Source of the DNA: a virus
Reading direction: 5' to 3' (one strand)
IMG/VR virus record: IMGVR_UViG_3300025000_000328
Location: 1 to 30,032 of that record
DNA: 30,032 nt
Numbering within the stretch: position 1 is the stretch's first letter; every line of letters begins with the position of its first letter. Shown here piece by piece: positions 1,653-27,120 of the stretch. The translations under genes were made by a program, and so were the position numbers. Under the pieces are notes generated by a model that was not told where the DNA came from, did not search any database, and saw only the letters and a list, made by a program, of their open reading frames with translations.

Positions 1653-1710
1653 CACTCTTATGGTTCGCGAAATTGGAGTTGCCGCCAAAAGTAACGAACC
1701 ATAATGAGTG
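1653..1710. promoter_or_regulatory. Long inverted repeat upstream of the transposase gene
   Basis: The arms CACTCTTATGGTTCG (1653-1667) and CGAACCATAATGAGTG (1695-1710) are complementary over 15 positions with one inserted base, separated by 27 nt. The right arm ends 17 bp before the preferred transposase start and contains an ATG (1704) that would be an alternative start. It could be an operator for the CII-like protein, or an mRNA hairpin limiting transposase translation. No T-run follows, so it is not a typical terminator. Confidence 0.55.
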
Positions 1711-1727
1711 CTTATAGAGGGACTAAT

Positions 1728-3794
1728 ATGGAACTTCATCAATTATCAGATGCGGTCACAAGGCAAGAACTAAAACCAAAAGAAAAATTTGACGTACGAG
1801 AAGTTGCTGAATTATTGAGGATTAGTGAAAGAGCAGTTCAGAAAAAAATAATAAAAGAGAAATGGATTACAGAGGATGTTCCTCATCCAGGTCCGACTGG
1901 AGTGAAAAAATATATTCCACTTACTTCATTGCCGGCGCTGGTACAATTGAAATATTGCCGCGAGAACAATCTTTACCAAAACAAAGATCAAAAATACTTT
2001 GAAGAAGAAAGTCTTGATGAGATACCGGAAAAAGCGCGTGAAATAGCACTAACAAAAAATGATTGGATAATCTCATGGTTAGACTTCAGGAAAAAATCGA
2101 AACTTCCGAAACACAAAGCAGATCTAAAATTTATTCATCAATATAAATCAAACCCGAACGATCCAATCTATAAAAGACTGAACGGCAAAGGATCTATTAA
2201 AACATTATACCGCGATTGGAAATTACTGGAAGAGAACGGAAATGATTGGAGAGTTCTTGTCCCAGGGTTCTCTTATGGTAAAGCAGGCTCAATTGTATGT
2301 GCAAAAGAAGCTGAAGCTCTTCTGAAATATATAAAGTACCCGACGAAGTTAAAGATCTCCGAAATAGTCCGCAACGCTGTTGACGAACTGCAAGCTGATG
2401 GATTTGTGAACATACGTCACCCGCGCGTTTACGAACACTGGATCAATGAATGGAAGAATAAAAATTTTGACGAATGGACCTTGCACCGCGAGGGACAAAA
2501 AGCATTGAATGATAAAGTGAGTTACTACACCCGCCGCGATAAAGAATTATTGGAAGTAGGCGACATGATAGTAATTGACGGTCACACATTAAACTTTGAG
2601 ATACAATCCCCTTACCCGCCGTACAAACCGAAACGAATGACATTGATTTTAACTTATGATTACCGGAGCGACATGCCTCTTGGCTGGGAAATAATGCCGA
2701 GTGAAAATAAATACGCAATTGCATCTGCGGTAAGAAGAGCCCTAATATTTCTGGCATACAGCTGCGGACTTGAGAACAACGCATTGAAAGGAAGAGTCGT
2801 AAATATTGATAACGGCCGCGCGAACAAGAGTAAATATTTATTGGGCACTAAAGACTGCTGGTATCACGGAGATTTTAAGAAAGATGGAGTAACCGGATTG
2901 TTTCAAAAGGTATTTGAGAAGGTTCAAATTGCAAAACCATACCACGGACAAACGAAAACAATTGAGAGATTTTTTGGAACATTCAGCGAGATGGAACGAC
3001 TGGCAATTACTTACAGCGGAACCTCGATTGCGGATAAAGCGCCGCGCATGATGCGCAATGAAAAATATCACAAAGCAATTTATGAGAAGATGACTAAAGG
3101 CGTTTCAATGGGAGTTGAACAGGCTCATTACGCTATTTCAAAATGGTTTGACAACTACGCGGCAAGACCACACCAGGACGGATACTTCAAAGGGCACACA
3201 CCAAAAGATTTATTCTTTGAGAGTTTAGAAAAAGTAAAACGGATGCCGGATTTTGAAAGCCGTTTACTTGGCAAAGAGCATCTGAATTATCTGATGCTTG
3301 AAGAAAGGATAACAACTTTATACCGCCGCGGGATCCGGTTTGGCGGCAGAGAATATTTTGACCCGGCGCTTTACAGTTTTGAAAAAGGGAAAGATAGAAT
3401 TGAGTTTAGAATAAAGTTTGACAGAGAGAGTCCTGAATCGATTTTAGTATTTGACGAGAAAGATAATTTTATCTGCACAGCCACAGAGAAAAAACTTTTA
3501 CACCCGCTTGCGAAATTTTACGGCTCACCTGATGAGATACAAGAGTATCAAGATCAATTAAAAATGCAGAGTGAGATGAAGCGCTTAACAGTTGACAGCT
3601 TTCAGACACATTTTACCACTGAGGTTATGCCTTTGCTACCGGCGGCGATAAAACAAATTGAAAACAGAGAAGAAGCCAAACAACTGAAGAGAGGAAATGC
3701 CGTTATTAAAAAAGCTGTTGGTTATGACGGCCTGGATTTTTCTTGTGATGATGAAATTAAAAAAATTGATAACGAACTAGATCTTAATCCTTAA
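1728..3794 (+). CDS. MuA-like DDE transposase
   Basis: This 688-aa protein is close in size to MuA (663 aa) and should catalyse integration and replicative transposition of the phage. Residues about 20-75 form the N-terminal winged HTH (VREVAELLRISERAVQKKI), followed by the end-binding domains. The RNase H-fold core spans about 275-430 with D284 (VIDGH), D361 (NIDNGRANKS) and E413 (KTIERFFG), the DDE triad. A beta-barrel Mu-transpos_C region follows at about 530-600, then a charged tail of the kind that contacts MuB. An in-frame ATG at 1704 exists but lies in the inverted repeat; the ATG at 1728 has AGAGGG six bases upstream and is preferred. Confidence 0.95.
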   Translation: MELHQLSDAVTRQELKPKEKFDVREVAELLRISERAVQKKIIKEKWITEDVPHPGPTGVKKYIPLTSLPALVQLKYCRENNLYQNKDQKYFEEESLDEIPEKAREIALTKNDWIISWLDFRKKSKLPKHKADLKFIHQYKSNPNDPIYKRLNGKGSIKTLYRDWKLLEENGNDWRVLVPGFSYGKAGSIVCAKEAEALLKYIKYPTKLKISEIVRNAVDELQADGFVNIRHPRVYEHWINEWKNKNFDEWTLHREGQKALNDKVSYYTRRDKELLEVGDMIVIDGHTLNFEIQSPYPPYKPKRMTLILTYDYRSDMPLGWEIMPSENKYAIASAVRRALIFLAYSCGLENNALKGRVVNIDNGRANKSKYLLGTKDCWYHGDFKKDGVTGLFQKVFEKVQIAKPYHGQTKTIERFFGTFSEMERLAITYSGTSIADKAPRMMRNEKYHKAIYEKMTKGVSMGVEQAHYAISKWFDNYAARPHQDGYFKGHTPKDLFFESLEKVKRMPDFESRLLGKEHLNYLMLEERITTLYRRGIRFGGREYFDPALYSFEKGKDRIEFRIKFDRESPESILVFDEKDNFICTATEKKLLHPLAKFYGSPDEIQEYQDQLKMQSEMKRLTVDSFQTHFTTEVMPLLPAAIKQIENREEAKQLKRGNAVIKKAVGYDGLDFSCDDEIKKIDNELDLNP

Positions 3795-3813: not shown

Positions 3814-4068
3814 ATGGCAAGTAAACAGTTACAGAAGGATCAGACAGTCCTTTACGCAAACGTGAAGTATGATGTTGTCTTCAGCAACAACACCACCACC
3901 AAACTTGTGAAATCCGGTGAGAAGATAAAGCATTTTGAGACAAAGGACCCGGACTCAGGCGAAATTCAAAAAGTTGAGACCAACACAATATACTGTGATA
4001 CCGACAGCATGTTATTGAGAACGCTGCCGAGTGAAGTTGAACAGCCTGCCGAGGTTGAACATGAATAA
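3814..4068 (+). CDS. Hypothetical early protein between transposase and MuB
   Basis: An 84-aa, mostly hydrophilic protein of unknown function. The ATG at 3814 has AGGAG at 3801-3805, eight bases upstream; an earlier GTG at 3805 overlaps that site and is unlikely. The first 65 residues look beta-rich (VLYANVKYDVVF, TTTKLVKSGEKIKHF) and the tail is acidic. Its last eight bases overlap the MuB start, so it is co-translated with the transposition proteins. No family was recognised; an accessory transposition role would be guilt by association. Confidence 0.6.
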   Translation: MASKQLQKDQTVLYANVKYDVVFSNNTTTKLVKSGEKIKHFETKDPDSGEIQKVETNTIYCDTDSMLLRTLPSEVEQPAEVEHE

Positions 4069-4954
4069 CGTAATAGAACAGTTTAACAATCTCATACTTG
4101 AGAAGAAAATAAAATCGATAAACAATGCTGCAAAAGCTATGGATGTTTCTTCCTCTTCCCTCTCGCAATATCTGAACGGGAAGTACGGCGGGGACTCCGT
4201 GAAAATTGAAGCGAAGGTACTCAGCTTTATGCAGCTTATTAAAGAACGTGAACTGAACTGTGATGACGAGATCTCTTTTATTGAAGGGTTGAAAAATACG
4301 CAGATGATTCTTGATGTTGTCCGGTTAGCGCATATAAGAAAAACAATTGGTTTGATAACAGGCCGCGCAGGTTTTGGGAAAACACTAGCTCTGAAAAATT
4401 ACTGCAGGAAGAATCCGGACGCGATTTACATTGAGGTTGACAACGCATTTAACGCCAAGGAATTGATGAAAGAGATAAACGCGAAGTGCGGGTTCTACGG
4501 AGTTGGTCAATTGAACAAATTAAAAAATCAGGTGATTGAGAAATTGGCAGGAACCGGAAGAGTAATAATTATTGACCAGGCAGAATACTTAAACGACAGA
4601 GCTCTGGATCTTCTAAGAACCGTTTACGACCGGGCCAATGTTGGATTGGTACTTAGCGGATTGCCTGTACTTCTGAGTAACATAAAAGGGACCAACGGAA
4701 TACATGAACAGGTTTATACAAGGATAGGCGTGGCGCTTCAGCTGGAGCCGCCTTCGGTTGAAGATCTTAAGAAGCTGATAGGTACTTATATAAAGAGTTC
4801 AATTGAACTTGACAGTGCGTTTATAACTGAAAGCCGGAGAAACCCGAGAGTGCTTTACATACTTATCCGCGAGAGCAAACGGATTGCGAAGAACAAAGGG
4901 ATTCCGATTAATCCGGATATAGTGAGAGTTGCATCAAGGCAGCTGGTAAGGTAA
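4061..4954 (+). CDS. MuB-like AAA+ ATPase, transposition target selector
   Basis: This 297-aa protein has an N-terminal HTH (about residues 5-50, SINNAAKAMDVSSSSLSQYL) as in MuB, then an ATPase domain with Walker A GRAGFGKT at 101-108 and Walker B VIIID ending at D172. MuB (312 aa) forms ATP-dependent filaments on target DNA, delivers it to MuA and gives target immunity. The ATG at 4061 has GAGG six bases upstream and overlaps the previous gene by 8 nt; the upstream in-frame GTG at 4031 lies inside that gene and has no better site. The gene order transposase, small ORF, MuB is typical of transposable phages. Confidence 0.92.
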   Translation: MNNVIEQFNNLILEKKIKSINNAAKAMDVSSSSLSQYLNGKYGGDSVKIEAKVLSFMQLIKERELNCDDEISFIEGLKNTQMILDVVRLAHIRKTIGLITGRAGFGKTLALKNYCRKNPDAIYIEVDNAFNAKELMKEINAKCGFYGVGQLNKLKNQVIEKLAGTGRVIIIDQAEYLNDRALDLLRTVYDRANVGLVLSGLPVLLSNIKGTNGIHEQVYTRIGVALQLEPPSVEDLKKLIGTYIKSSIELDSAFITESRRNPRVLYILIRESKRIAKNKGIPINPDIVRVASRQLVR

Positions 4955-6838: not shown

Positions 6839-7012
6839 ATGAAGAGACCGAGAACAAATCCAAGTGCGCCGCCAAATGAAACTGGCATTAGTTCATTGAC
6901 ATCCCGGAAGAGACGGGGAACATGGGTATTAAGTGCGCTGGTAACGGAAGAGTTTTCTGACAGCCGGGAAAGACCGGCAACTCTTAATGGAAAATTGAGA
7001 ATTGCAAATTGA
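6839..7012 (+). CDS. Possible small ORF before gam
   Basis: A 57-codon frame from ATG 6839 to TGA 7010-7012 fills the only sizeable gap in the early operon. The product would be basic and Ser/Arg-rich, with its last seven residues (GKLRIAN) encoded by the heptamer repeat at 6986. No clear ribosome binding site precedes it and no family is recognised, so it may be non-coding leader sequence. Confidence 0.3.
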   Translation: MKRPRTNPSAPPNETGISSLTSRKRRGTWVLSALVTEEFSDSRERPATLNGKLRIAN

Positions 7013-7020
7013 GAATTAAG
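6986..7020 (+). repeat. Heptanucleotide tandem repeat (AATTGAG type)
   Basis: Five consecutive 7-bp units: AATGGAA, AATTGAG, AATTGCA, AATTGAG, AATTAAG. It lies about 70 bp before gam and gives no RBS to it. Confidence 0.75.
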
Positions 7021-7086
7021 GCAAGAGTGATGGTTAGAATAAATAAACCGGAATACAGATTAACCATTAAAAAACGGAGTAGTAAA

Positions 7087-7590
7087 ATGAACATTCAAAC
7101 ATTTGAGGACGTGAATAAAACACTCCTCGAAATTGCAAAGAAGGAATCATTCATCACAAAGAAAGAAGTTGAGATGAATGAGAAGATCAACAAAATAAAA
7201 AACGAATTCGACGATGACGTGAAAGAAACCCGCGCTCAAAAGCAACTGCTTGAGCAGGAAGTTGAGGGTTTCTGCAAGGTGAACAAAGAAGAATTCGGTA
7301 AGCTGAAATCGATGGCGTTAATGTTCGGGACAGTATTCTTCCGGACAACACCGCCAAAGGTTACGCAGCTCAATAAGAAATATTCGGTTGCCACAACAAT
7401 CGAGTTAGCCAAAAAACTTTTCAAGCAGAAATTCATCCGTGAAAAAGCCGAGCTTGATAAGGAGGCAATCCTCACCTCTTACGCCGCAAAAGAGATAAAT
7501 GATGAGAAGCTCGCGGCGATCGGTTTGAAGATAGACCAGGAAGAAAAGTTCGGTTACGAAATAAACTGGGAAACATTGGATAGCAATTAA
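7087..7590 (+). CDS. gam: Gam-like host-nuclease inhibitor
   Basis: This 167-aa protein matches the Mu Gam family (Phage_Mu_Gam), about the length of Mu Gam (174 aa). The N-terminal half is a long helical hairpin (about residues 1-75); it is followed by the family's hallmark strand pair 'GTVFFRTTPPKVTQL' and a C-terminal helical part ending in the EEKFGYEINWE strand. Gam binds DNA ends as a Ku-like dimer and shields them from exonucleases such as RecBCD. ATG 7087 has GGAGT six bases upstream; upstream in-frame starts (7009, 7030) would extend it through repeat sequence. Confidence 0.85.
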   Translation: MNIQTFEDVNKTLLEIAKKESFITKKEVEMNEKINKIKNEFDDDVKETRAQKQLLEQEVEGFCKVNKEEFGKLKSMALMFGTVFFRTTPPKVTQLNKKYSVATTIELAKKLFKQKFIREKAELDKEAILTSYAAKEINDEKLAAIGLKIDQEEKFGYEINWETLDSN

Positions 7591-8920: not shown

Positions 8921-9246
8921 ATTGCGCGAATTGTGAAAGGGATTTTAAGGAAGATGACAGCAATCGAGGTGGCGGATTTACACAACAGAACGCTCACTTC
9001 GGAAGACCTTACCGGATGTTTGGTTTCAGTTGTCCATGGTGCGGCTTTCATAATACGGTATTTGCTGTCCCCGTTAAAATACCTTTTGTGAGAAGCGGAA
9101 GAACATACGATAAGCTCGATGTAATAATTGAGAGATTCAAAACAGATATTGCCGCGTTCTATGCCAACAGGAAAGAACTGCAAGGACAGTTATCATTATA
9201 TGAGCCAGATGAACCCACGGAAGAAAATAGAGCTTCTAAAGGATGA
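8917..9246 (+). CDS. Zinc-ribbon protein
   Basis: A 109-aa protein with CANC at residues 3-6 and CPWCG at about 39-43, a two-knuckle zinc ribbon, followed by beta strands and a C-terminal helix. A TTG start at 8917 overlaps the previous stop (TTGA) and has GGAG seven bases upstream. Its 3' end overlaps the start of the MuF-like gene by about 47 nt. Function unknown. Confidence 0.6.
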   Translation: MNCANCERDFKEDDSNRGGGFTQQNAHFGRPYRMFGFSCPWCGFHNTVFAVPVKIPFVRSGRTYDKLDVIIERFKTDIAAFYANRKELQGQLSLYEPDEPTEENRASKG

Positions 9247-9934
9247 GATACGCGCGACTCTTGAACATGACGCGCTGAGATATAAACGAAGCATCATTAG
9301 AGAGATTGATTCTTTGTGGCGGAGTTACAAGAACACAACATCAAATATGTCGATTGACCGATTTGCAGATTATGTCTTTAACTTCCTACGTGTCCCCGCC
9401 GGTGTGAGATATGAGATACTTGCGGATCTGAAAGATACTCAGACGCAGATAGGGAGTGTATGGGACGAATACTTTGGTTCGCTCCTCGACTCCGCTCGGA
9501 GTGACACGCTTGGTAAAAATTATGAGAAATTGATTGCAACTTATTCCGTTGATTTCAAAAGCATTGACAGCAACACACGGGATATTGTTGTAAAAACTTT
9601 TCGTGAATCTGTTAATAAGGACTATTCGTTTGAGACCATACGCACAAATCTTTTAAAGACAACAATCAATTCAAATGAAGTTTACACTCTTGCCAATACA
9701 GCTGTTAGTATGTATGATAATTCCACAATGTTTGAGTACGCGCTTCAAGCCGGGATAAATCGATTTTTGTATGACGGACATCTTCAGGCAAACAGCAGAA
9801 TTTTTTGTATTGAACATTTCAAAAAGATCTACACTTACCAACAAATTTTACAGATGGATAATTTTCAGGGTTTGCCGGTTGTAACAAGCTGCGGCGGATA
9901 TAATTGCCATCATTACTGGACAGCGAAAATTTAA
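9200..9934 (+). CDS. MuF-like minor head (head morphogenesis) protein
   Basis: A 244-aa protein whose C terminus has the Phage_Mu_F signature: 'SRIFCIEHFKKIYTYQQI', then 'MDNFQGLPVV', then 'CGGYNCHHYW'. In Mu-like phages this protein sits inside the capsid near the portal and is needed early in head assembly. Here it is not beside the portal gene (13405-14610, opposite strand) but after the early block. Residues 94-105 (SLLDSARSDTLG) are encoded by an in-frame TTCGACTCCGCTC repeat. Start: ATG 9200 or 9209; both overlap the previous gene and neither has a strong RBS; a TTG at 9128 is in frame. Confidence 0.8.
   Translation: MSQMNPRKKIELLKDEIRATLEHDALRYKRSIIREIDSLWRSYKNTTSNMSIDRFADYVFNFLRVPAGVRYEILADLKDTQTQIGSVWDEYFGSLLDSARSDTLGKNYEKLIATYSVDFKSIDSNTRDIVVKTFRESVNKDYSFETIRTNLLKTTINSNEVYTLANTAVSMYDNSTMFEYALQAGINRFLYDGHLQANSRIFCIEHFKKIYTYQQILQMDNFQGLPVVTSCGGYNCHHYWTAKI
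9479..9513 (+). repeat. TTCGACTCCGCTC-family repeat in frame within the MuF-like gene
   Basis: 28 bp (9479-9506) are identical to 10543-10570, in another gene. In both genes the repeat is read as SLLDSARSD. It adds about 12 residues without breaking the frame. Confidence 0.8.
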
Positions 9935-9945
9935 GAATAATTTAG

Positions 9946-9972
9946 AATTGAGAATTGAGAATGGAGAATTGA
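9946..9972 (+). repeat. Heptanucleotide tandem repeat (AATTGAG type) carrying an RBS
   Basis: Units AATTGAG, AATTGAG, AATGGAG, AATTGAA run straight into the ATG at 9973; GGAG is six bases before it. Confidence 0.75.
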
Positions 9973-10155
9973 ATGAGTCATTATGAAAAAGAATTAAACG
10001 AGCAGGAAACGGCTCTTAAGAATGAATTGAGAAAACAGATAAGGCTGAAAATAAATGAGTTTTCTAAAGATGAGCTGGAATTTGTTTTTATAGTTGTAGC
10101 GCACCTGAAAGTGTTCAGAAATTATTTACAGGCTGTTAAGGCACTGCTATCATGA
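9973..10155 (+). CDS. Small helical hypothetical protein
   Basis: A 60-aa protein, charged coiled-coil-like in the first 35 residues, then a hydrophobic segment (ELEFVFIVVAHLKVF) that is too short and charged-flanked for a sure membrane helix. The RBS is supplied by the heptamer repeat. ATGA overlap with the next gene. Confidence 0.55.
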   Translation: MSHYEKELNEQETALKNELRKQIRLKINEFSKDELEFVFIVVAHLKVFRNYLQAVKALLS

Positions 10156-10379
10156 TCAGCGATAAAGATCTAAAGATTAATCAGCTTTACTGGTGCGAGA
10201 TCATAGATCCTCAATGCACTCAATATTTTGGAAAGCAGTTGATTGTTAAATCCACCGGGATACAATTCCGTGAGGTTGACGATAAAAAAGCCATTAAAGA
10301 CAAAAGAAATTTTCTTCTTCCACAATTAAAAATTTTTAGAGAAGCAAAGGAGATGGACCGTGAGTCAACGATACTTTAA
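10152..10379 (+). CDS. Hypothetical protein
   Basis: A 75-aa protein, beta-rich at the N terminus (YWCEIIDPQ, KQLIVKSTGIQF) like a small barrel. Translationally coupled on both sides: ATGA overlap upstream, and the next gene's GTG lies 20 bases before its stop. No family recognised. Confidence 0.55.
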   Translation: MISDKDLKINQLYWCEIIDPQCTQYFGKQLIVKSTGIQFREVDDKKAIKDKRNFLLPQLKIFREAKEMDRESTIL

Positions 10380-10602
10380 AAAAATAAGAAAAGAAGTAAA
10401 GAAGAAAATATCTGCTGACCTTGGTCAGGCTGTGAGATCTCTTGGAAAAGAAAAATTGTACTGGAGAGTTGTTTACGCTCTGCGGATCATTTTTAATTTC
10501 CATCCGGATCCGAAATTTTTAGTTAAGAAAACGGAAGATCCCTCGCTCCTCGACTCCGCTCGGAGTGACAAGCTCGGGATGACAAAAAAGGAGAATAAAT
10601 AA
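10360..10602 (+). CDS. Small basic hypothetical protein with repeat-derived tail
   Basis: An 80-aa basic protein. The GTG start at 10360 is well supported by AAGGAGA six bases upstream. The last 20 residues (from PSLLDSARSD) are encoded by a TTCGACTCCGCTC repeat, so the gene originally ended elsewhere. No family recognised. Confidence 0.55.
   Translation: MSQRYFKKIRKEVKKKISADLGQAVRSLGKEKLYWRVVYALRIIFNFHPDPKFLVKKTEDPSLLDSARSDKLGMTKKENK
10543..10583 (+). repeat. TTCGACTCCGCTC-family repeat at a gene end
   Basis: 28 bp match 9479-9506 exactly. A further AGCTCGGGATGAC half follows, giving a longer copy. On the reverse strand it reads CHSERSRGA, a peptide produced by this repeat family. Confidence 0.8.
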
Positions 10603-10603
10603 A

Positions 10604-10924
10604 ATGGCAACAATGGTTGAGTTGGGAATTGAAACCTACGCATGCGCTCACTGCAAAATGCAGATGTTCCTTACGGCTGAGTTTGTAAGGCAAATGAGAG
10701 AGACACATGAAGGGTTCTACTGTCCAATGGGACACAATAATTTTTTCCCTGGTAAATCCGAAAAAGAAAAGCTGGCAGAGCAATTAGATCAATCTCGTCG
10801 TGAACTCGAAAGAGAACGGAATATGATTTCTTCCCTTCGGGATGAAGTACAGAGAGAAAAATATTCTAAAGCCGCATACCACGCACATTTTACGAGATTG
10901 AAAAAGAAAATAGCCTCGGACTAA
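10604..10924 (+). CDS. Zinc-binding coiled-coil protein
   Basis: A 106-aa protein. CAHC at about residues 14-17 and 'YCPMGH' at 39-44 could bind one zinc (C, C, C, H). Residues 50-105 are a charged coiled coil (EKEKLAEQLDQSRRELERER). AAGGAG lies eight bases before the ATG. It is the last rightward gene before the terminator at 10999. Function unknown; other phages carry similar zinc/coiled-coil proteins of unknown role. Confidence 0.6.
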   Translation: MATMVELGIETYACAHCKMQMFLTAEFVRQMRETHEGFYCPMGHNNFFPGKSEKEKLAEQLDQSRRELERERNMISSLRDEVQREKYSKAAYHAHFTRLKKKIASD

Positions 10925-10998
10925 CGGCGTGGAAACTAAAGCGCCGCCAATAATTGTTCTTAAAAATTTTGATTGACATAAACTAAGAAATAAAAAAA

Positions 10999-11018
10999 GA
11001 CCGCTCGGTTGAGCGGTC
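10999..11018. terminator. Rho-independent terminator, probably bidirectional
   Basis: An 8-bp perfect stem GACCGCTC/GAGCGGTC with a GGTT loop. On the reverse strand it is followed at once by seven T, so it ends the leftward pair 11053-11422; on the forward strand a weaker T-rich tract (TTTGAGTTTTT) follows, ending the early rightward block. Confidence 0.85.
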
Positions 11019-11052
11019 GCTTTGAGTTTTTGGTTATGGGTTTTTGCGCGAC

Positions 11053-11187
11053 TTACTTTTGGTTGACATACTTTTTAATTAATTCAACGATTACAAAAAG
11101 CATTGTTTTGCCTTGCGTGGCGCATTTGATTTTGAAAGCCCGCCAGAGCGAGCTTTCAATTTCGAGTTTGTAATATGATTTATTCAT
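11053..11187 (-). CDS. Ribbon-helix-helix (CopG/Arc-type) DNA-binding protein
   Basis: A 44-aa basic protein below usual ORF cut-offs. It reads beta strand (YYKLEIES), then helix (LWRAFKIKCATQGK), then helix (TMLFVIVELIKKYV), the pattern of CopG-type RHH repressors, with the 'FK.K....GK.M...I.ELI..Y' spacing known from plasmid and antitoxin members. Its ATG overlaps the stop of the acidic gene upstream by 8 nt, so the two are translated together. It probably represses its own promoter through the palindrome at 11467-11477. The terminator at 10999-11018 follows 35 nt after the stop. Confidence 0.65.
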   Translation of the reverse strand: MNKSYYKLEIESSLWRAFKIKCATQGKTMLFVIVELIKKYVNQK

Positions 11188-11422
11188 TATCATACTTCTC
11201 GTGAATTAACTGAATTGCTTCTTCAATTGAATCAACATCTAATTCGATTGTGTCAACTATTCCTTGCCACGCCGAGCGCGGGTAAGAGGTTTGAGCATCA
11301 CTTTCGTTTCCTTCAACGAAAAGTTCTTCACAAACTTCTTCTTCGTTGTTTGTGTTAATTTCACGAACTAACTCTTCATCAAGTTCGCCAGAGATGTCGA
11401 TGTAAAAAGCAAATTTTTTCAT
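11180..11422 (-). CDS. Highly acidic small protein, partner of an RHH regulator
   Basis: An 80-aa protein with 23 Asp/Glu and 5 Lys/Arg (net charge near -18), two short hydrophobic strands (KFAFYIDISG, DTIELDV) and a C-terminal helix (SIEEAIQLIHEKY). No known family was recognised. GGAG is six bases before the ATG, and a promoter (TTGACT-N17-TATCTT) lies upstream. Leftward orientation between two rightward blocks, its own promoter and terminator, and coupling to an RHH gene mark a self-contained cargo unit. The charge would fit a DNA mimic such as an anti-restriction protein, or an antitoxin-like partner; neither is shown. Confidence 0.6.
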   Translation of the reverse strand: MKKFAFYIDISGELDEELVREINTNNEEEVCEELFVEGNESDAQTSYPRSAWQGIVDTIELDVDSIEEAIQLIHEKYDNE

Positions 11423-11457
11423 TTTGAACTCCTTTAATTGGTTTTAATCTCACTTCA

Positions 11458-11486
11458 AAGATAGTGAACACAGTGTTTAAAGTCAA
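11458..11486 (-). promoter_or_regulatory. Promoter and palindromic operator of the acidic/RHH pair
   Basis: On the reverse strand TTGACT (11481-11486) and TATCTT (11458-11463) are 17 bp apart. The spacer contains a perfect 11-bp palindrome AACAC-A-GTGTT (11467-11477), well placed for autorepression by the RHH protein. Confidence 0.55.
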
Positions 11487-11586
11487 GAGAAATCGACAAG
11501 AAAATAAAAAAAAGTTTTGAAGGAAAGTAGAAGGCAAAACAATGCGATTTCGCACTGAAAAATGAATTTAAGCGCAAAACCCCCAT

Positions 11587-11642
11587 AACAAACGCTTAGC
11601 CCGCACGGCGTTGTTTGCCGGGACGGCGCTCAAGCGTCAGTT
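11587..11642 (+). other. attC-like hairpin (integron cassette site?)
   Basis: AAC-AA-ACGCTT (11587-11597) pairs with AAGCGT-CA-GTT (11632-11642): two paired boxes separated by a 2-nt mismatch, and a 34-nt GC-rich imperfect inner stem. That two-box hairpin geometry is the hallmark of integron attC sites (R''/L'' and L'/R'). The patch is much more GC-rich than its surroundings. The RYYYAAC consensus is met only partly, and no integrase is in the window, so this may be a chance or relic structure. Confidence 0.35.
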
Positions 11643-11704
11643 AGCCCGGGCGGTTGATTGGCACAAACTTAATGTTTAATTTAAAGTTAAAGGCAGGAGG
11701 AAAA

Positions 11705-11917
11705 ATGGAAAGTGTCCCCCAAATTTTCACAATGAAGAGAATAGCGATATACTTATTTTGTCTCTGGCTGGGCGGAACGATGCTTTTTACATGGATGATC
11801 AATCTGGATTCTTTGCATATTCGCGTTCACGGCGGACCAACAAAATTATATGAGCAAATCTATTACCAAGCTATAACAATTAAAGAAATGAGTAAATCAT
11901 TCATAACAATATTTTAG
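11705..11917 (+). CDS. Small single-span membrane protein
   Basis: A 70-aa protein with one hydrophobic segment at about residues 12-32 (IAIYLFCLWLGGTMLFTWMI) after a short basic N-terminal stretch, giving one membrane helix with about 38 residues outside. AGGAGG is four bases before the ATG at 11705; an upstream TTG (11654) lies in the leader. It is followed 8 bp later by a lipoprotein gene, so the pair may act at the envelope, for example in lysis or exclusion. No family recognised. Confidence 0.6.
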   Translation: MESVPQIFTMKRIAIYLFCLWLGGTMLFTWMINLDSLHIRVHGGPTKLYEQIYYQAITIKEMSKSFITIF

Positions 11918-11925
11918 GAGGAAAG

Positions 11926-12330
11926 ATGAAAAAGTATTTTATCCCGTTGGTTTTTCTTTTGTTCTCATGCTCGACCATGGAGACACAAAAAGAAATTAGA
12001 TATTATGGATATGATTTTCGTCCCTACACCGCAAAGGGATTCCTCTTCACAACGGAGGGGTACGACGGTCAATATGAAAGCATTGCATCATTCGCGGCGG
12101 TGATGTACCCGGAGGTAAAACAGATTGAGGATCAATCGGTTTTAGGGAATACACGATGGGCGGCGGGTGAAGTCCATGCCGGCGAAGTAATTGATAGTAT
12201 GTATGCCAGGGCAACAAGAATGGGCGCTAATGCCATAATCCGTTTCGAATTGCGCGATATTCAAAAATTAAACGGGAAAATAATAATGGAAGGACTTCAA
12301 GCCTCCGGATTTGCGATTAAAAGGAAGTAA
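11926..12330 (+). CDS. Lipoprotein with YbjQ-like (DUF74/UPF0145) domain
   Basis: A 134-aa protein with a short signal peptide and a lipobox LFSC (Cys15), so it should be a membrane-anchored lipoprotein. The C-terminal half (about residues 75-132) has the pattern of the YbjQ family: 'AGEVIDSMYARATRMGANAI', a strand, then 'MEGLQASGFAIK'. AGGAGG lies just upstream. Together with the preceding membrane protein and the terminator at 12359 it forms a two-gene rightward unit between the early block and the leftward head block. A prophage cargo (moron) role is inferred; it has no known part in virion assembly. Confidence 0.7.
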   Translation: MKKYFIPLVFLLFSCSTMETQKEIRYYGYDFRPYTAKGFLFTTEGYDGQYESIASFAAVMYPEVKQIEDQSVLGNTRWAAGEVHAGEVIDSMYARATRMGANAIIRFELRDIQKLNGKIIMEGLQASGFAIKRK

Positions 12331-12358
12331 CTACAATAAGAAGCAACCTCACCTCTAC

Positions 12359-12392
12359 CCCTCTCCTTGAAAAAAGGAGAGGGATTTTTTTT
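12359..12392 (+). terminator. Rho-independent terminator
   Basis: A 10-bp perfect stem CCCTCTCCTT/AAGGAGAGGG with a 5-nt loop, followed by A and eight T. It ends the lipoprotein unit and its T-run overlaps the stop codon of the converging gene 12391-12621. A related CCCTCTCC hairpin without T-run is at 14630-14648. Confidence 0.85.
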
Positions 12393-12621
12393 ATTTGAAC
12401 TGCTTATCTATTCTCTTCTTAATACTTCCCCACTCAGCTTGAAGCTCTTTGCAATTCAATAGATGCGACCGGTGCTTTTGCAAATCAAATTGTCTATCGT
12501 TCATTTCGGTTCCGTTAATTACTTCCACCGGAAGGTAACTATTAAACATACCATTACCTTGTAAAACCACGAAGACTTTGGGACAGTAAGGACAGTTGTA
12601 TGGAGTGTTGAGTTTGATCAT
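12391..12621 (-). CDS. Small zinc-finger protein
   Basis: A 76-aa protein with CPYC at residues 10-13 and 'HRSHLLNC' at about 50-57, giving a C-C-H-C/H zinc site with an unusually long insertion between knuckles. It is the last gene of the leftward head block and its upstream spacer is the heptamer repeat 12622-12654. Function unknown. Confidence 0.6.
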   Translation of the reverse strand: MIKLNTPYNCPYCPKVFVVLQGNGMFNSYLPVEVINGTEMNDRQFDLQKHRSHLLNCKELQAEWGSIKKRIDKQFK

Positions 12622-12654
12622 AATTGCGAATTGAAAATTGAGAATTGATAATTA
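12622..12654. repeat. Heptanucleotide tandem repeat (AATTGAG type)
   Basis: Units AATTGCG, AATTGAA, AATTGAG, AATTGAT and a partial fifth lie between the zinc-finger gene and the gpG-like gene. As read on the leftward transcript it is pyrimidine-rich and gives no RBS, unlike the copies before rightward genes. Confidence 0.7.
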
Positions 12655-12655
12655 G

Positions 12656-12690
12656 ATCCTTCGGTCACTCCGTTCCCTCAGGATGACAGC
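12656..12690. repeat. Diverged repeat supplying the end of the gpG-like gene
   Basis: GATCCTTCGGTCACTCCGTT and CAGGATGACAGC form a variant of the TTCGACTCCGCTC/GGATGACA repeat family. The stop codon and the last few codons (LSS) of the leftward gene lie in it. Confidence 0.6.
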
Positions 12691-13319
12691 TTCTGAAAAA
12701 TTAATTTTTCGGCGAGATCTCCGAGCTGATCGAGTTCGTTTGGAGAGAGATCCATGAAGATACGTTTTACTTTATTCTTGCCGGCACCGATATGCTGATA
12801 GTATGCTTTCTCAGATTCACTTGCGGATGAGAAACCGATTTCAGCTTGTAAATTTTCCGCACGGAGAATTCCTAAATTTCTAAGCATCCTTGATGACCAA
12901 CTCATATCAACCGGTGACGCGCTTTTCATGTTCATTTCCCGCCAGCGCTTGTAACCGCCTTGAATTAAAACCATTGTGTGACCGCTCTTTGAACGGAACA
13001 CTGAAAATTCACTGCGGTCCATTGCGGTGGACACAACATGTTGTGTCCCTACTTTACGTTTGATGAATTTTACATTCTTAGCGCCGCGTGTTCCCTCCCT
13101 CCGCAAAAGTGTTTTACCGAATTTTTTTATAAAAAGTCCATACGGCACCGGCATTGGTCGTGTTGAATATTCCGATCCTCCGGTGCTGCCATCAAGGTAA
13201 ATTCCTCTCTCAACGCGCTGGCGGATGAACGCTTGCGCTTTGGTTGCAACTTTGATCATCAGTACATTATCTACAATGCTGTTTTCGATTTGCTTGAATA
13301 TGTCTATGTTGGGGTCCAT
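12678..13319 (-). CDS. Virion morphogenesis protein (Mu gpG-like)
   Basis: A 213-aa protein of the phage virion-morphogenesis/tail-completion type (PF05069). The C-terminal third shows the family pattern 'IGFSS...YYQHIGAGKNKVKRIFMDLS' followed by a terminal helix; the N-terminal part is helical with an Arg-rich middle. It probably acts at the head-tail interface. In Mu gpG follows gpF; here it directly follows the portal gene and MuF is missing from this side. The 85-bp spacer to the portal gene holds an inverted pair of repeats (13340-13401). Confidence 0.75.
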   Translation of the reverse strand: MDPNIDIFKQIENSIVDNVLMIKVATKAQAFIRQRVERGIYLDGSTGGSEYSTRPMPVPYGLFIKKFGKTLLRREGTRGAKNVKFIKRKVGTQHVVSTAMDRSEFSVFRSKSGHTMVLIQGGYKRWREMNMKSASPVDMSWSSRMLRNLGILRAENLQAEIGFSSASESEKAYYQHIGAGKNKVKRIFMDLSPNELDQLGDLAEKLIFQKLSS

Positions 13320-13336
13320 TTTTTATTTACCTTATG

Positions 13337-13404
13337 CCTCGACTCCGCTCGGCATGACAATTCTGCTCGACATGACTTCCACGTCAGACTGAGCGGAGTC
13401 GAAG
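13337..13404. repeat. Inverted pair of TTCGACTCCGCTC repeats
   Basis: CGACTCCGCTC (13340-13350) and GAGCGGAGTCG (13391-13401) form an 11-bp stem around 40 nt that holds a third, partial copy. The element fills the gap between the gpG-like and portal genes. A full palindromic element like this may be the parent form of the single copies elsewhere in the window. Confidence 0.75.
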
Positions 13405-14610
13405 TCAATTGAATACTTCATCACCATCGGCGGGAGGTGTAAAATTTAGTTTCTTGTATACTTCGCTTTTCTTCAACGGAATTTGTTTGCGCAATTCGGG
13501 ATCTGAAAATAAATTAGTAATGATCCTTGAATTGCTTTCGAAATCTTCCTGCTCATCCTGAACGAAAACAAATTCAAAGAAATCATTTTTCGGTTCGCCG
13601 TAATTGAGCAGATAATCATGTTTCAAATACTGTTCACTGATTATTTGCTGAACCTTTGAAAGATCACTCACAATAATTAGATCATCAACGGTTGAATGAA
13701 CTTCGGCAGCGGCTTTTGAGCCCTGCTTAATTTCTGTCGTGAGGTTTTGTCCGTGCAGTAAAATTGCAAGCTCTGTATTAGCGGCGGAGATGAACTGATT
13801 GAAAGATTCTTTTGAGTCATTCTTCAAAGCGTCATCATATAATATTTTTACATAATCCGGAAAGACAGCGACTGAATCATTCTTCAGCTTCTCAACCATT
13901 GTAATAAGTTTTGAAACTTCGGCATCATCAATTCCGTCCGGATGAGTTGCGTATGTTGAAGGGATCCCGTGACGTTTGTTCAGATCTCGCCAGTCCCACC
14001 GTGTATGATATTTGAGATAGCTCAACATCATTGCGCTGCGCATGAAGGAGCCGATATAAAATTTTCTATTCTCAAGCGGATTATGACGGGTGAGGATGTG
14101 AACTTCCGGATCCAGTTCGGATTTTGTTAAAGTGTTGCCGTTGGTAATTTCATAAAGTCCGTTTGTCTCATCGGAAAAATCGAGATCGCTGAGATCGTAA
14201 GAAAATTTATTTGCAACCATTGTACCGAATGGAGTGTTCTCCCATTCGAGACGGACGGCACTCATGCCGTAAAGAATTCCATTCATAATATCGGCAATGA
14301 GATCTGAAATCTTTCCACGTCGGAATCTTCTCTTGGTCTCGGTGAGTTGTTTCTCTTCGAGCGGAGAAATTTTATATTCTTGAGGCAAGCGGATGTCAAA
14401 CGGATAAGTTTGAATTGCCAGCTTGCGCGTTTGCACCAATCCCATGAGATAGAGATCCACTTCGCAGAGGCGCTGAAGAAATGTCATCAACGCGCGGACA
14501 TCTCTTTGAGCTCCGTTTTGAGTTGGAGTGTTGGCAAGTCTTAAATATTTCCGGAGCTGATCGACAGTCGGAAGGATGTTGTTTGTTAGATCTGCATTTT
14601 GGTACGGCAT
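13405..14610 (-). CDS. Portal protein (Mu gp29-like, DUF935)
   Basis: A 401-aa portal protein, the dodecameric DNA gate at the capsid vertex. Family marks include the mid-region 'LNKRHGIPSTYATHPDGIDD' and the strongly conserved 'LLHGQNLTTEIKQGSKAAAE' with the following VHSTVDDL. It is shorter than Mu gp29 (about 510 aa), mainly at the N terminus. Its RBS GGAGAGG, six bases upstream, is part of the CCCTCTCC repeat at 14617-14648. It is translated after the large terminase subunit in the leftward head operon. Confidence 0.9.
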   Translation of the reverse strand: MPYQNADLTNNILPTVDQLRKYLRLANTPTQNGAQRDVRALMTFLQRLCEVDLYLMGLVQTRKLAIQTYPFDIRLPQEYKISPLEEKQLTETKRRFRRGKISDLIADIMNGILYGMSAVRLEWENTPFGTMVANKFSYDLSDLDFSDETNGLYEITNGNTLTKSELDPEVHILTRHNPLENRKFYIGSFMRSAMMLSYLKYHTRWDWRDLNKRHGIPSTYATHPDGIDDAEVSKLITMVEKLKNDSVAVFPDYVKILYDDALKNDSKESFNQFISAANTELAILLHGQNLTTEIKQGSKAAAEVHSTVDDLIIVSDLSKVQQIISEQYLKHDYLLNYGEPKNDFFEFVFVQDEQEDFESNSRIITNLFSDPELRKQIPLKKSEVYKKLNFTPPADGDEVFN

Positions 14611-14616
14611 AAAAAG

Positions 14617-14648
14617 CCTCTCCCTTTGTCCCTCTCCAAAGGAGAGGG
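14617..14648. repeat. CCCTCTCC hairpin repeat supplying the portal RBS
   Basis: CCCTCTCC/GGAGAGGG with an AAA loop at 14630-14648, next to another CCTCTCC (14617-14623). Related to the terminator stem at 12359. No T-run follows on either strand; on the leftward mRNA the GGAGAGG next to the portal start is the likely Shine-Dalgarno. Confidence 0.6.
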
Positions 14649-14655
14649 AATTAAT

Positions 14656-16329
14656 TTACAATCTATTACCTAGATCTCTGCTGCTGATTGAATGAACGAT
14701 GTTACCGATTTTGAATGAGCCGGAATAGTGAACTAATTTTAATTCGTGCAATAATTCCAAAATAGAAACAAACCAATCGGCGGCGTCATCTTTTTTATTT
14801 CTCTTCTTTCCGGCGAATCCGTGGAACTGCGCTAAAAATCTTTCACCTGTTTCCGTTTCTTTAAAGCCGGGTGGAAAATAAACTTCACGATTCTTATAAA
14901 TCTTCTCGGCATTTTTTGTGAGAGCGTCAACATCGTAATGCTTGTAATCGATTGAAGGAACCGGAATACCTTGATGACGTGAAAAGTTCCGGACGTGCTG
15001 AGTCCAGTGACTTTCCTGATTAACATTTCCATCGAACGCAAGAACTCGGGAATAGATTCCGCTCATTTTTAATTTATTGCGGTGTTCCAAAACTTGTTTG
15101 AGCAATTCGTTTGGATCCGAAAAAGATTCGCAGATTAAACCGGGAGGAATATAAAACTTTTGTTTTGACGGACTGAAACCCATCGATCCCGCGGCGGTTG
15201 TATCTCCTTTCTGTTTTTTAGAAAGGTTCGGATCCGTATAAGTTGCCGTGCGAATATCTTTTGGAAGATCTTCCCACTCCTGATAAAACTCCGGAGGAAA
15301 AATATCCGATCCGCGCACTTTTGGATTCTGTTGAAAGTTGCCTGCCCAGTCGTAATCATTTTCCGGCTGGAGCATTTCTTTCAATTCCTCTTCGCTCTTT
15401 GCCGGATACTTTGAGAACCAAACAGATTTAGCTTGACCGGGACGGGATGGATCCCATGCTTTATGAATATGAAGAATAAAATTCTTTGAGAGGACACCGG
15501 CTTCAAATTCTTTCTTCAATTGGTTAAGCGCGCAATCTACATGAAAATTATTTCCTTCTGCGAGAAGTGTTCCCCAGCTTTCCAGAGAAGAACGCATTTC
15601 ATTAATACGGTCAATTCTTTTTCTGATTGCGTCTTTAGTGAGTGAAGAAGTTTCATTCTCAATATCCGTGAAGACAATTTCATCGTAACGATCAATTAAA
15701 TTTCTCTGTCCGCCGCGTGTTGATCTCTCTTCGGAAAGCGGTTCGATGTATGAACCTTCCGGATTTTCCGAATAGTTGGAAATCAATTGAAGTCCATCCT
15801 CGGAAATTTTTCCCCACTGAAGATGATAATCATGCTGAATGCGTTTGTTGGTTGTAAGAAAAATATAAACGTCAATCAAAAATAATTTTGGAGCGCGGAG
15901 AGTACCGGAACCGAAACCGATATATTTTCTTTTGGCATGGAGAAAATCGAAAATGACTTTACGTTTTACCCATGAAGTTTTTGCCGTCTTACGCGGACCC
16001 ATAAAGATGTGAGCCTTTGCGTCTCGAAGATCCGTAATGCCGATTTCTTCCTTATGGTAGAATCCGGGTTCTGCAAATCCCGTCTGATCGCCGGGCGAGC
16101 CAGAGAAAACTTCCGGAGGAAAATAAGTCCTATCCCACAACCAAAAATCTTTAGTAACTTTTTCCATTCTTCTTTTTGTAGCAGCGGCAGTCATCTCGGA
16201 AGGTTTGAATGGCGGAACACGGCTGGAAGATTCAAGAATTTTATCTTTAGTCTCCTGCGCGTTCTCGGCAGCGAGTTGTTCTTCAATCTGCTTGAGAAGT
16301 ATGTCGTCTGTTAAAAAAAGTTCGTCCAT
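14656..16329 (-). CDS. Large terminase subunit (Mu gp28-like)
   Basis: A 557-aa DNA-packaging motor. ATPase: a deviant Walker A GPRKTAKT at 111-118 and Walker [10 protein letters not shown] with D222 and E224. Nuclease (RNase H fold): D366 (YTDPN) with D376, D433 (AFDGN), and the D514/D515 plus D518 cluster (KKDDAADWF). Length and order match Mu gp28. An ATG at 16365 in the same frame would start inside a TTCGACTCCGCTC repeat and has no RBS; ATG 16329 has AAAAGGA very close to it. The start therefore stays uncertain by 12 codons. Confidence 0.9.
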
Positions 16330-16339
16330 GTCCTTTTCG

Positions 16340-16362
16340 TCCCTCGACTCCGCTCGGGATAC
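16340..16362. repeat. TTCGACTCCGCTC-family repeat at the terminase start
   Basis: TCCCTCGACTCCGCTCGGGA lies just upstream of (or at the very start of) the large terminase gene. If translated it would add an N-terminal extension ([10 protein letters not shown]), the reverse reading of the same repeat. Confidence 0.75.
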
Positions 16363-16452
16363 CATTTAAAACCCGTTTAAAACCGTTCAAAATCGATTTG
16401 AGGGGGCAGCAACGGAATTATGGTCAAGTGACCATTTTCGCAATAGCCAGCC

Positions 16453-17007
16453 TCATTTGTTTAATTTTTTCAACTTCTCGGATTCTTCCTTAAAAATGCG
16501 TGTAATTTCTTCATCGGAAATATCCGGTTGCATACGTCTCATAATTGCAATAATGATTTTAGCGTTGCCATTTTTAAGATACTGCTCGATCATTTGAGCT
16601 TTCATTTGTTTATTGACAATCGAAAGCTTTCTAAGAAGATCTACTCTTTTTTCGAGAGTAATCTTTTTCTCATTTATCTGCGAGACAATAACAGTGATCT
16701 CATGCTCAATAAATTTTTCGAATGACGGGAATTGGGAGTAATCAATGGGCGGCATTTCGGTAACGGTTTTATCAGCGTTAATTTTTACTTCTTTGATCTT
16801 TCCCTTTTCATCAACCGTGGTTGAAGATTTAGCATCACGCGGATTGATTGTGTTGTAAATCTGGAAGTAAGAATATTTTCCTTCGCAGAAACGGAAGATT
16901 TCCATCGGCTTCATGCCTTGATTATGAAGCGAGAGAATTTTTTTTGTATCGTTTGCCGATTTGTGAATGGCTCTTGGTTTACGCTGATTCTTTTTATTAC
17001 CGTCCAT
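16453..17007 (-). CDS. Probable small terminase subunit (Mu gp27 position)
   Basis: A 184-aa basic protein. Residues about 15-55 (NDTKKILSLHNQGMKPMEIF, then SYFQIYNTI) form a helix-turn-helix like the DNA-recognition domain of small terminases. Long charged helices at 90-180 would support oligomerisation. It comes directly before the large terminase, as gp27 does in Mu. Its ATG shares a base with the stop of the upstream gene (TAATG on the reverse strand). The function is inferred from HTH and position. Confidence 0.6.
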   Translation of the reverse strand: MDGNKKNQRKPRAIHKSANDTKKILSLHNQGMKPMEIFRFCEGKYSYFQIYNTINPRDAKSSTTVDEKGKIKEVKINADKTVTEMPPIDYSQFPSFEKFIEHEITVIVSQINEKKITLEKRVDLLRKLSIVNKQMKAQMIEQYLKNGNAKIIIAIMRRMQPDISDEEITRIFKEESEKLKKLNK

Positions 17008-17456
17008 TACACACCTTTCATTTTGTATTTAAACGCCGCTTGAATAGTTGAACCCGCTGCCGACTTGCGAAGAATTAAAATTGGGATGTCCTGGCACTCG
17101 ATATGAATAACTTCATCTGCGTTATCGGAATTTTTGAGAGTTGCGAAAGCTCCGGTAGCAACAACTTTGTGAACTGTAAGAGCCATGAGTAAAGCTTCGT
17201 TAAAACTTTCTCCGGCGGATTCGCATTGAGAGGAGTTGCAAGAAAAATAAATGCTGCACGGCAGTCCGATAATTTTATTTTTCTGAGAGTCAAGTTCCGC
17301 CGGATCATCGAAATCGGAATAGATCATAATTGCGGGACCATCCGGGAAAGAATAATCTTCACTCCCCTCTTCCGGAAGAACGAGTTGCGAATAAGTAACC
17401 ATATTATCTCCGATGAGATCTATGAGATACGCAATTACTGTCGTTGGCATTACCAT
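17007..17456 (-). CDS. Connector/tail-terminator-like protein (Mu gp37 position)
   Basis: A 149-aa protein. The N-terminal helix, 'GPAIMIYSDFDD' strand and later 'IPILILRK...AAFKYKM' strands fit the alpha/beta layout of phage neck and tail-terminator proteins (DUF1834/gp37-like), but no diagnostic motif is visible. GAGAGG precedes ATG 17456; a second ATG is two codons later. It overlaps both neighbours by one to three bases in the leftward operon. In Mu gp36 and gp37 also lie side by side. Confidence 0.45.
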   Translation of the reverse strand: MVMPTTVIAYLIDLIGDNMVTYSQLVLPEEGSEDYSFPDGPAIMIYSDFDDPAELDSQKNKIIGLPCSIYFSCNSSQCESAGESFNEALLMALTVHKVVATGAFATLKNSDNADEVIHIECQDIPILILRKSAAGSTIQAAFKYKMKGV

Positions 17457-17869
17457 TATAACCTCTCGCTTCTTGAATCATCCGCGCTGTAATAAAAAGT
17501 TGAAGCTTGCGAAGTCTGGGATTTTGATACTACGGCTCCGGTAGAATCGTAAACAATTTTTTTGCCTTCACTGATGTCGTTCAATTCAGCCATAGCATCG
17601 TCATACATTTTAGCGCGGTGTTTGCGGTCATCTTCATTTAGCGTTTGACGCGTACCGACTAAGTAAATAAAAATGACATGCGAGAAATATTGAAGCATCG
17701 GGATTGCGTCATCTACAGACGCCGGGATCGGGATAAGAGTTTTTTGAAAAACGATATTGTCCGCTTGAGCTATTGCGGACTCCATTCCGGCAACTTCGGC
17801 AAGATCTTTAGTAATAAAACTTTTATCACCAAGAAAACTTTTAATTGTCTCACTGCTAATTAACGGCAT
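17456..17869 (-). CDS. Head-tail connector-like protein (DUF1320/gp36-like)
   Basis: A 137-aa protein starting with a helix pattern (MPLISSETIKSFLGDKSFIT, then AIAQADNIV) typical of gp36/DUF1320-type adaptor proteins, though its similarity is judged only by eye. ATG 17869 has GAGG five bases upstream; an ATG at 17899 in frame has no RBS. It is the first gene of the leftward block, next to the divergent control region. Confidence 0.5.
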   Translation of the reverse strand: MPLISSETIKSFLGDKSFITKDLAEVAGMESAIAQADNIVFQKTLIPIPASVDDAIPMLQYFSHVIFIYLVGTRQTLNEDDRKHRAKMYDDAMAELNDISEGKKIVYDSTGAVVSKSQTSQASTFYYSADDSRSERL

Positions 17870-17892
17870 AACGTCCTCATCTTTTTCAATTA

Positions 17893-17938
17893 CCCACATC
17901 TGAAAATGTGGGCTAAAAAATCTCCATCTAATATGATA
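17893..17938 (-). promoter_or_regulatory. Leftward late promoter element and leader hairpin
   Basis: On the reverse strand TATCAT (17933-17938, five of six -10 matches) lies 32 bp from the centre of the dyad at 17968, with no -35 consensus, as expected of an activator-dependent promoter. The leader then forms a 7-bp hairpin CCCACAT/ATGTGGG (17893-17912) before the first gene. Confidence 0.4.
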
Positions 17939-19372: not shown

Positions 19373-20316
19373 TATCTCAAATTTCAGCGATGAACGGAAG
19401 AGCAGCCGGGCTGCTTAGTAAAATGATTGATCTGGCGCCTGTCTTCCGTGTGGCGCAGTTCAAACTCGATCCATCAACATTCCTTGTGAACAAAGAAGCT
19501 CTTGTCAATACAGGGACAGCCGCACGAGCTATCGGTGCAAGTGCTCAACGAGATGCGCAGGCACCCAGTTCAGCGCTTGCTTCCTTGGCCGCTTACACAC
19601 GCGAGATCTCGATTGATGAGGTTTATCTTGCCGACCAAAACATTGGCACTTCTCCAAAAGCGTTGAAGCAGGTTTATGACAGGAAGTTAAACGAGTTCAC
19701 CGTCAAAATGGCAGAGGAGATTCAGGACCATATGTTCGTTGGTACTGGTACAAACAACCAAATGGTTGGTTGTTCGGTATTCTGTCTTGATGCAGCGGCT
19801 GGTGGACAAACTACTCGTTTCGGCTTTACAACTGCCGAAATAGCTTCAATGAATCAGAATGTAAATCTTCAACTCGTTGAAGATAATTTTGGTGCCTTCC
19901 TTGAATTTTTGGAGAAAGAACTTGCAAAAGTCCCAGGTGCCAACGCGATTGAATGTAATATTAATCTTGCTGCTCGTTTAACTACAATTGCACGTGCAAA
20001 ACATGTTTACGGTCAAATCAACGATGCCTTCCAAGGAACTCTTGAGACAATCCTCAACGTCCCGATCATCAAGTTGCCGGTTACCGCAATTCCACAAACC
20101 GAGACTGACGGCGTCAACGCAGATTGTACTTCGATGTATTTAAAACGTTATGCCGAAGAGTTGGGAATGAGTTACTCGACAAATAATGGATTTACATTCG
20201 TTGATTTTCCGGAAACAGAAGTGAAACCAAATTCAGTTGCGAGAATCAGCTTCCACCTTCAGATGAGCCCGGAAAAAGTGAACTCGATGAAGAGGCTTAG
20301 CAGAATTAGATTATAA
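19366..20316 (+). CDS. Major capsid protein (HK97-fold, inferred)
   Basis: A 316-aa protein with AAGGAG seven bases upstream. Size, position after the scaffold, an N-terminal helical arm (residues 1-50), an E-loop-like 'YTREISIDEVYLADQNI' segment, a long spine helix (KALKQVYDRKLNEFTVKMAEEI) and 'FVDFPETEVKPNSVARIS' near the C terminus fit an HK97-type capsid, as in other Mu-like siphophages (Mu gpT is similar in size). No sequence motif alone is diagnostic. The transcript then passes a GC-rich hairpin (20358-20377). Confidence 0.75.
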   Translation: MLVSQISAMNGRAAGLLSKMIDLAPVFRVAQFKLDPSTFLVNKEALVNTGTAARAIGASAQRDAQAPSSALASLAAYTREISIDEVYLADQNIGTSPKALKQVYDRKLNEFTVKMAEEIQDHMFVGTGTNNQMVGCSVFCLDAAAGGQTTRFGFTTAEIASMNQNVNLQLVEDNFGAFLEFLEKELAKVPGANAIECNINLAARLTTIARAKHVYGQINDAFQGTLETILNVPIIKLPVTAIPQTETDGVNADCTSMYLKRYAEELGMSYSTNNGFTFVDFPETEVKPNSVARISFHLQMSPEKVNSMKRLSRIRL

Positions 20317-20357
20317 CCCCCACTACTTGCCATAGTGACTCAGCCGACCCCGGCGGC

Positions 20358-20377
20358 GTCCCGCAGAAATGCGGGAC
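20358..20377 (+). other. GNRA-capped hairpin between capsid and tail genes
   Basis: An 8-bp perfect stem GTCCCGCA/TGCGGGAC with a GAAA tetraloop, not followed by a T-run. Together with CCCCGGCGG just before it, it makes a GC-rich island in the 108-bp gap after the capsid gene. It may protect the 3' end of a processed capsid mRNA or be a host-type repeat. Confidence 0.5.
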
Positions 20378-20424
20378 TATGCCGTGGGAATAAGTTTTTG
20401 AATAATGGATAAACGGAGTTTGAG

Positions 20425-27095: not shown

Positions 27096-27120
27096 CCCCT
27101 CGACTCCGCTCGGGATGAAA
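27096..27120 (+). repeat. TTCGACTCCGCTC-family repeat
   Basis: CCCCTCGACTCCGCTCGGGA plus TGAAA sits between the hub-like gene (stop 27093-27095) and the tail fibre gene. Confidence 0.75.

Follow-up and report, generated by a model that had tools for sequence, protein, structure and literature searches.

The window analysed here is the whole 30,032-nucleotide stretch of the IMG/VR virus record IMGVR_UViG_3300025000_000328, and its gene content (MuA, MuB, Gam, portal, terminase and head protein) identifies it as a Mu-like transposable, temperate phage. It encodes a CI-type repressor (236-667), a CII-like regulator (1149-1613), MuA (1704-3794), MuB (4031-4954), Gam (7009-7590), a portal protein (13405-14610), a terminase (14656-16365), a protease and a head protein, and its packaging cluster (12678-17899) runs leftward. 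A gene that we call MuF-like (9128-9934, plus strand), a label taken from a C-terminal pattern that it has in common with the related phage L008 and not from any family match, converges with a gene at 12678-13319 (minus strand). The 2743 bp between them (9935-12677) hold a unit of two small genes, which reads on the minus strand from 11486 to 10992 and comprises a promoter, a palindrome, a Shine-Dalgarno sequence, two overlapping open reading frames and a terminator. The first gene (11180-11422, minus strand) encodes an acidic orphan protein of 80 amino acids and the second (11053-11187, minus strand) a putative ribbon-helix-helix (RHH) autorepressor of 44 amino acids; they overlap by 8 nucleotides (11180-11187).

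The promoter, TTGACT-N17-TATCTT (11458-11486, minus strand), has its TTGACT at 11486 and its TATCTT ending at 11458, and it matches the sigma-70 consensus in 9 of 12 positions. Promoters of Bacteroidota have the form TTG-N20-TATCTTTG, and the same site at 11458-11486 fits this form too. The window shows no enrichment of this pattern (4 occurrences observed versus 3.3 expected), and therefore we do not call a host from it. Between the -35 and -10 elements lies an 11-bp palindrome, AACAC-A-GTGTT (AACACAGTGTT, 11467-11477), which is a putative operator. It is short; in this window, a stretch of 17 bp is expected to contain about 0.08 such palindromes, and this one, taken alone, is within chance expectation. 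The Shine-Dalgarno sequence AAAGGAG (11429-11435, minus strand) precedes the acidic gene, and the unit closes with an intrinsic terminator (10992-11018, minus strand) made of an 8-bp stem (10999-11018) followed by seven T. The initial annotation had already described the promoter, the palindrome in its spacer, the gene overlap and a very acidic first protein, and all four were found as described. It had also called the terminator, which lies just beyond the 11053-11486 that it gave for the unit, bidirectional; the hairpin is strong on the minus strand (fold z -4.7) and weaker on the plus strand, so that termination in both directions is plausible but not clear-cut. In our judgement, the correct order of promoter, palindrome, Shine-Dalgarno sequence, reading frames and terminator on one strand is not a matter of chance. 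It is very improbable that the reading frames are spurious or decayed and that there is no working unit; a unique sequence without homologs would fit this explanation, but the Shine-Dalgarno sequence, the promoter, the overlap, the terminator and the RHH-type sequence are all consistent on one strand.

The orientation of the unit against its neighbours, as first described, holds in part. The genes next to it, at 10604-10924 and 11926-12330, point rightward, whereas the reading frame at 12391-12621 and the packaging cluster are leftward like the pair. We saw no leftward terminator between the pair and these leftward genes (12391-12621 and 12678-17899), and the hairpin at 12359-12383 is not followed by a T run on the leftward strand. 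Late transcription could therefore read through into the pair.

The acidic protein contains 23 aspartate and glutamate residues versus 5 lysine and arginine residues, which gives a net charge of -18 and a pI of 4.05. Homologs were absent from the viral_contigs, genome_contigs, phages, plasmids and PDB collections, in searches whose pattern-based scans are blind to distant relatives. The PDB search gave no sequence match to solved Acr proteins or to the DNA mimics Ocr and ArdA, PADLOC gave no relative, and profile searches gave no match to a toxin family. Lacking homologs, the protein also has no link by association to an Acr of proven activity. The one family match is partial: residues 58-80 (IEEAIQLIHEKY, a predicted strand followed by a helix) weakly match the Pfam family DpnD-PcfM (PF14207; E 0.0094). 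This likeness to DpnD/PcfM-like proteins is confined to 23 of the 80 residues and scores 16.4 bits, where the cut-off is 25. The family was not matched in L002 to L007, and a literature search for the function of PF14207 found no paper. The structure model of the acidic protein is poor (pLDDT 53), too low for a fold search.

The RHH protein is basic (pI 9.8), with a net charge of +6 versus -18 for its partner. GAGAAG stands 7 bases upstream of the start used here, and an alternative ATG at 11193 would give a protein of 46 amino acids. The initial annotation assigned the protein to the RHH regulators, and this assignment is supported by a match to Pfam 56B_RHH (E 0.0011, which does not reach the curated cut-off), by a match to the PHROG Arc-like repressor (E 0.039) and by a fold search with the predicted structure. 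The single-sequence AlphaFold model, a monomer, is confident (pLDDT 87), and about 15 of its 22 fold matches are RHH proteins, among them MatP, PutA, VapB, AvtR, SvtR, MazE-mt9, CopASO and CopG, which we take to be of this class. Every single fold match is insignificant (E >1), and the support that the fold search gives to the class comes from the agreement among matches of which none is decisive singly. The sequence has the strand-helix-helix pattern of the superfamily; in the monomer model, a helix stands in place of the expected strand. The protein gave only chance-level matches in tblastn; two of the four plasmid matches are annotated as ParG and HicB-family proteins, both RHH-bearing. A match to NrS-3 was rejected, as it lies inside another gene on the opposite strand.

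RHH proteins are common as antitoxins, and two small overlapping genes whose products have opposite charges could form a toxin-antitoxin-like or addiction unit, the two products interacting and jointly regulating the promoter. RHH antitoxins normally have a toxin-binding tail past the RHH unit. The 44 amino acids found here appear to make up the DNA-binding unit only, and the first gene is unlike known toxins; because of this, we consider such a unit rather unlikely. The pair shows no recognisable toxin and no tail, the features of a type II system, and acidity of the antitoxin type would be in the wrong gene.

The relatives of the phage, which were identified by way of MuA, terminase, Gam and the head protein, are few and distant. 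L016 is collinear with the window and its head protein is 72% identical; its MuF-like gene runs up to 4456 and the convergent homolog of 12678-13319 occupies the sequence from 4457, which leaves an interval of 0 bp. In L010, L011 and L009 the interval measures 654, 967 and 1718 bp, respectively, with different genes inside, and none of the three contains a leftward gene pair there. The empty interval in L016 and the other genes in these three phages show that this is an accessory site. The GC content of the module is 35% versus 41% elsewhere, a small difference over 434 bp. Conservation of the pair in other mobile elements was looked for and not found: the acidic and RHH genes together did not occur outside this record in the collections searched, where just the architecture and the site recur. 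Repeats of 32 nucleotides of the AATTGAGAAT type lie at gene borders at 4952, 6985, 8683, 9938, 12621 and 21360, and the copies at 9938-9969 and 12621-12652 bracket the 2.7-kb interval. These two could have served as recombination substrates, and some of the AATTGAGAAT repeats may be mere ribosome-binding leaders. Small lipoprotein-like or exported proteins are encoded in the interval of three phages (11926-12330 in the window, 13854-14537 in L011 and 8601-9083 in L009) and are possible superinfection-exclusion genes; the protein of the window (11926-12330) had no match in the phages collection.

Because L016 lacks the unit, it must be dispensable for phage development. This bears on the idea of a developmental switch, in which the RHH protein would act in trans on phage promoters and the acidic protein would be its antagonist. 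The RHH proteins Arc and Mnt of P22 do act in trans on phage promoters, and the Arc-like PHROG match, the opposite charges and the position at the border of early and late genes would be in agreement with a switch. On the other hand, the exact palindrome occurs just once in the window, genes for a CI-type repressor and a CII-like regulator are already present, and the collinear L016 does without the unit, so that we regard a switch as rather unlikely.

L008 contains an acidic protein and an XRE protein in a comparable operon (20217-21011) that immediately follows its MuF-like gene (19539-20189) and converges with it. The acidic protein has 140 amino acids and a net charge of -20, and its gene overlaps that of the XRE regulator (HTH_3, E 1e-11) by 14 nucleotides. 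The operon has a terminator and a promoter with TGACA/TGTCA repeats, TTGACA-N17-TATATT, in which the palindrome TGACA-AAG-TGTCA covers the -35 element. For the acidic protein of L008, too, no relatives were found; homology between the two acidic proteins is unsupported (shuffle p about 0.08), and the regulator class differs, RHH in the window versus XRE in L008. The pair of L008 lies near a contig end and the surrounding gene order differs from that of the window, and hence 'same site' refers to a position immediately behind the MuF-like gene, not to an identical flanking pair. The top score of the XRE protein is to the HipB-like antitoxin model 'couple_hipB' (E 7e-13, below cut-off), which would suit a toxin-antitoxin-like unit; we consider the operon a further candidate for anti-defence. 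With its own promoter and terminator, the empty site in L016 and this parallel pair in L008, the description of the unit as a self-contained accessory module stands.

Anti-CRISPR genes are found in accessory regions of Pseudomonas Mu-like phages (PMC4378225). In one of these, JBD30, acrF1 (78 amino acids) and aca1 (79 amino acids) overlap and lie two genes past the minor head protein. As in the window, a small first gene overlaps that of a small DNA-binding regulator at an accessory site among head-morphogenesis genes. We found no sequence relation between acrF1-aca1 and the pair described here, and there are further differences. The regulator of JBD30 is a helix-turn-helix (HTH) protein, whereas here it is an RHH protein of just 44 amino acids; the JBD30 genes are co-directional with the late genes, whereas the pair opposes its immediate neighbours; and anti-defence activity is proven in JBD30, whereas here it is architecture and position that suggest it. 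In Aca operons generally, the core promoter contains an inverted repeat, and the regulator encoded downstream represses that promoter by binding to the repeat (PMC9410906); an inverted repeat at this place, AACACAGTGTT, is present here, weak as it is alone. All twelve Acas of one study are HTH proteins (PMC9765179), and the Aca families in the literature cited here are HTH, none being RHH (PMC9410906, PMC9765179, PMC8708921). Since its regulator is RHH, the pair is not of a known Aca type, although it may still work alike; compared with known phage anti-defence operons, it appears to differ in regulator class and to be alike in construction. A precedent for an RHH regulator comes from conjugative plasmids of the pLS20 family, on which the RHH repressor Reg(p576) allows anti-restriction genes to be expressed only transiently, turning off itself and the anti-restriction gene ardC following a burst (PMC8708921); we propose similar control here. 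Reg(p576) differs in that it belongs to conjugative plasmids and controls several operons in trans, and the acidic protein is not ArdC-like in the searches made. Arc of P22 and CopG of plasmids are stand-alone short RHH autorepressors within their own operons, as the protein of the window would be; their partner genes, ant and repB, bear no relation to that of the acidic protein, and there is no significant sequence match.

Taken as part of the longer accessory interval, the unit falls within the definition of a moron (PMC4378225): the sequence provides it with its own promoter and terminator, it lies between two genes that abut in L016, and its GC content differs. The empty site in L016, the other genes in three relatives and the parallel pair in L008 are the reasons why we see it as a swappable operon of the moron type. 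The explanation that we tentatively favour is that this operon of a Mu-like phage consists of an RHH autorepressor and a briefly expressed acidic anti-defence factor. The promoter would give a short leftward mRNA encoding both proteins and stopping at the terminator, and synthesis of the RHH protein would be translationally coupled to the acidic gene. An RHH dimer would then occupy the palindrome in the spacer and close the promoter. Autoregulation of the 11458-11486 promoter by the RHH protein is, as we infer it, a point with fair support. If it does repress its promoter in this way, synthesis of the acidic protein would come in a burst once the DNA has entered the cell and would stay low in the lysogen. 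Judging from architecture, size, charge and location, the acidic protein most likely would bind and block an enzyme of host defence, such as one of a CRISPR or restriction system, and might do so by mimicking DNA.

A moron function outside defence would accommodate the same facts nearly as well. In the same RHH-autoregulated operon, the acidic protein may be a factor for lysogenic conversion or host takeover with no action on defence, one that, for example, targets RNA polymerase, a nuclease or the membrane or benefits the lysogen. The architecture and the accessory site fit equally, and the adjacent accessory genes include those for lipoprotein-like or exported proteins and not known anti-defence genes. 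An orphan gene overlapping that of a regulator near Mu-like head genes, however, is the acr-aca layout of JBD30, and we regard a function outside defence as possible, with less confidence than the anti-defence operon.

In its widest form, the anti-defence explanation would make the regulator an RHH counterpart of the Aca regulators that controls a hitherto unrecognised family of acidic proteins active against defence, with phage-specific sets at the site, a proposal that we consider doubtful. A gene of 44 codons is under common gene-calling size limits. As, in addition, anti-CRISPR operon finders look for HTH regulators (PMC9765179), such units would escape notice. Should the acidic protein block defence, the site after the MuF-like gene in this phage group becomes a search target, and if the regulator is indeed a counterpart of the Acas, searching the site would yield genes missed by HTH-based Aca mining. 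If the protein blocks no defence system, the unit is one more ordinary moron.

Other repeated sequences were noted in the window. Two late reading frames of 645 amino acids were considered as duplicates and rejected, as they are not duplicates. Short repeats with the core CCTCGACTCCGCTCGG are dispersed in the phage (at 6774, 7856, 9479, 10543, 13332, 16337, 22339 and 27093), and the copy at 9479-9513 lies in frame within the MuF-like reading frame. TTAGC-rich repeats of 85 nucleotides (TTAGCTTTTGGCTGTTAGC) occur at 27117, 29141, 29467 and 29913, and these open several late genes, in the part that encodes the N terminus.
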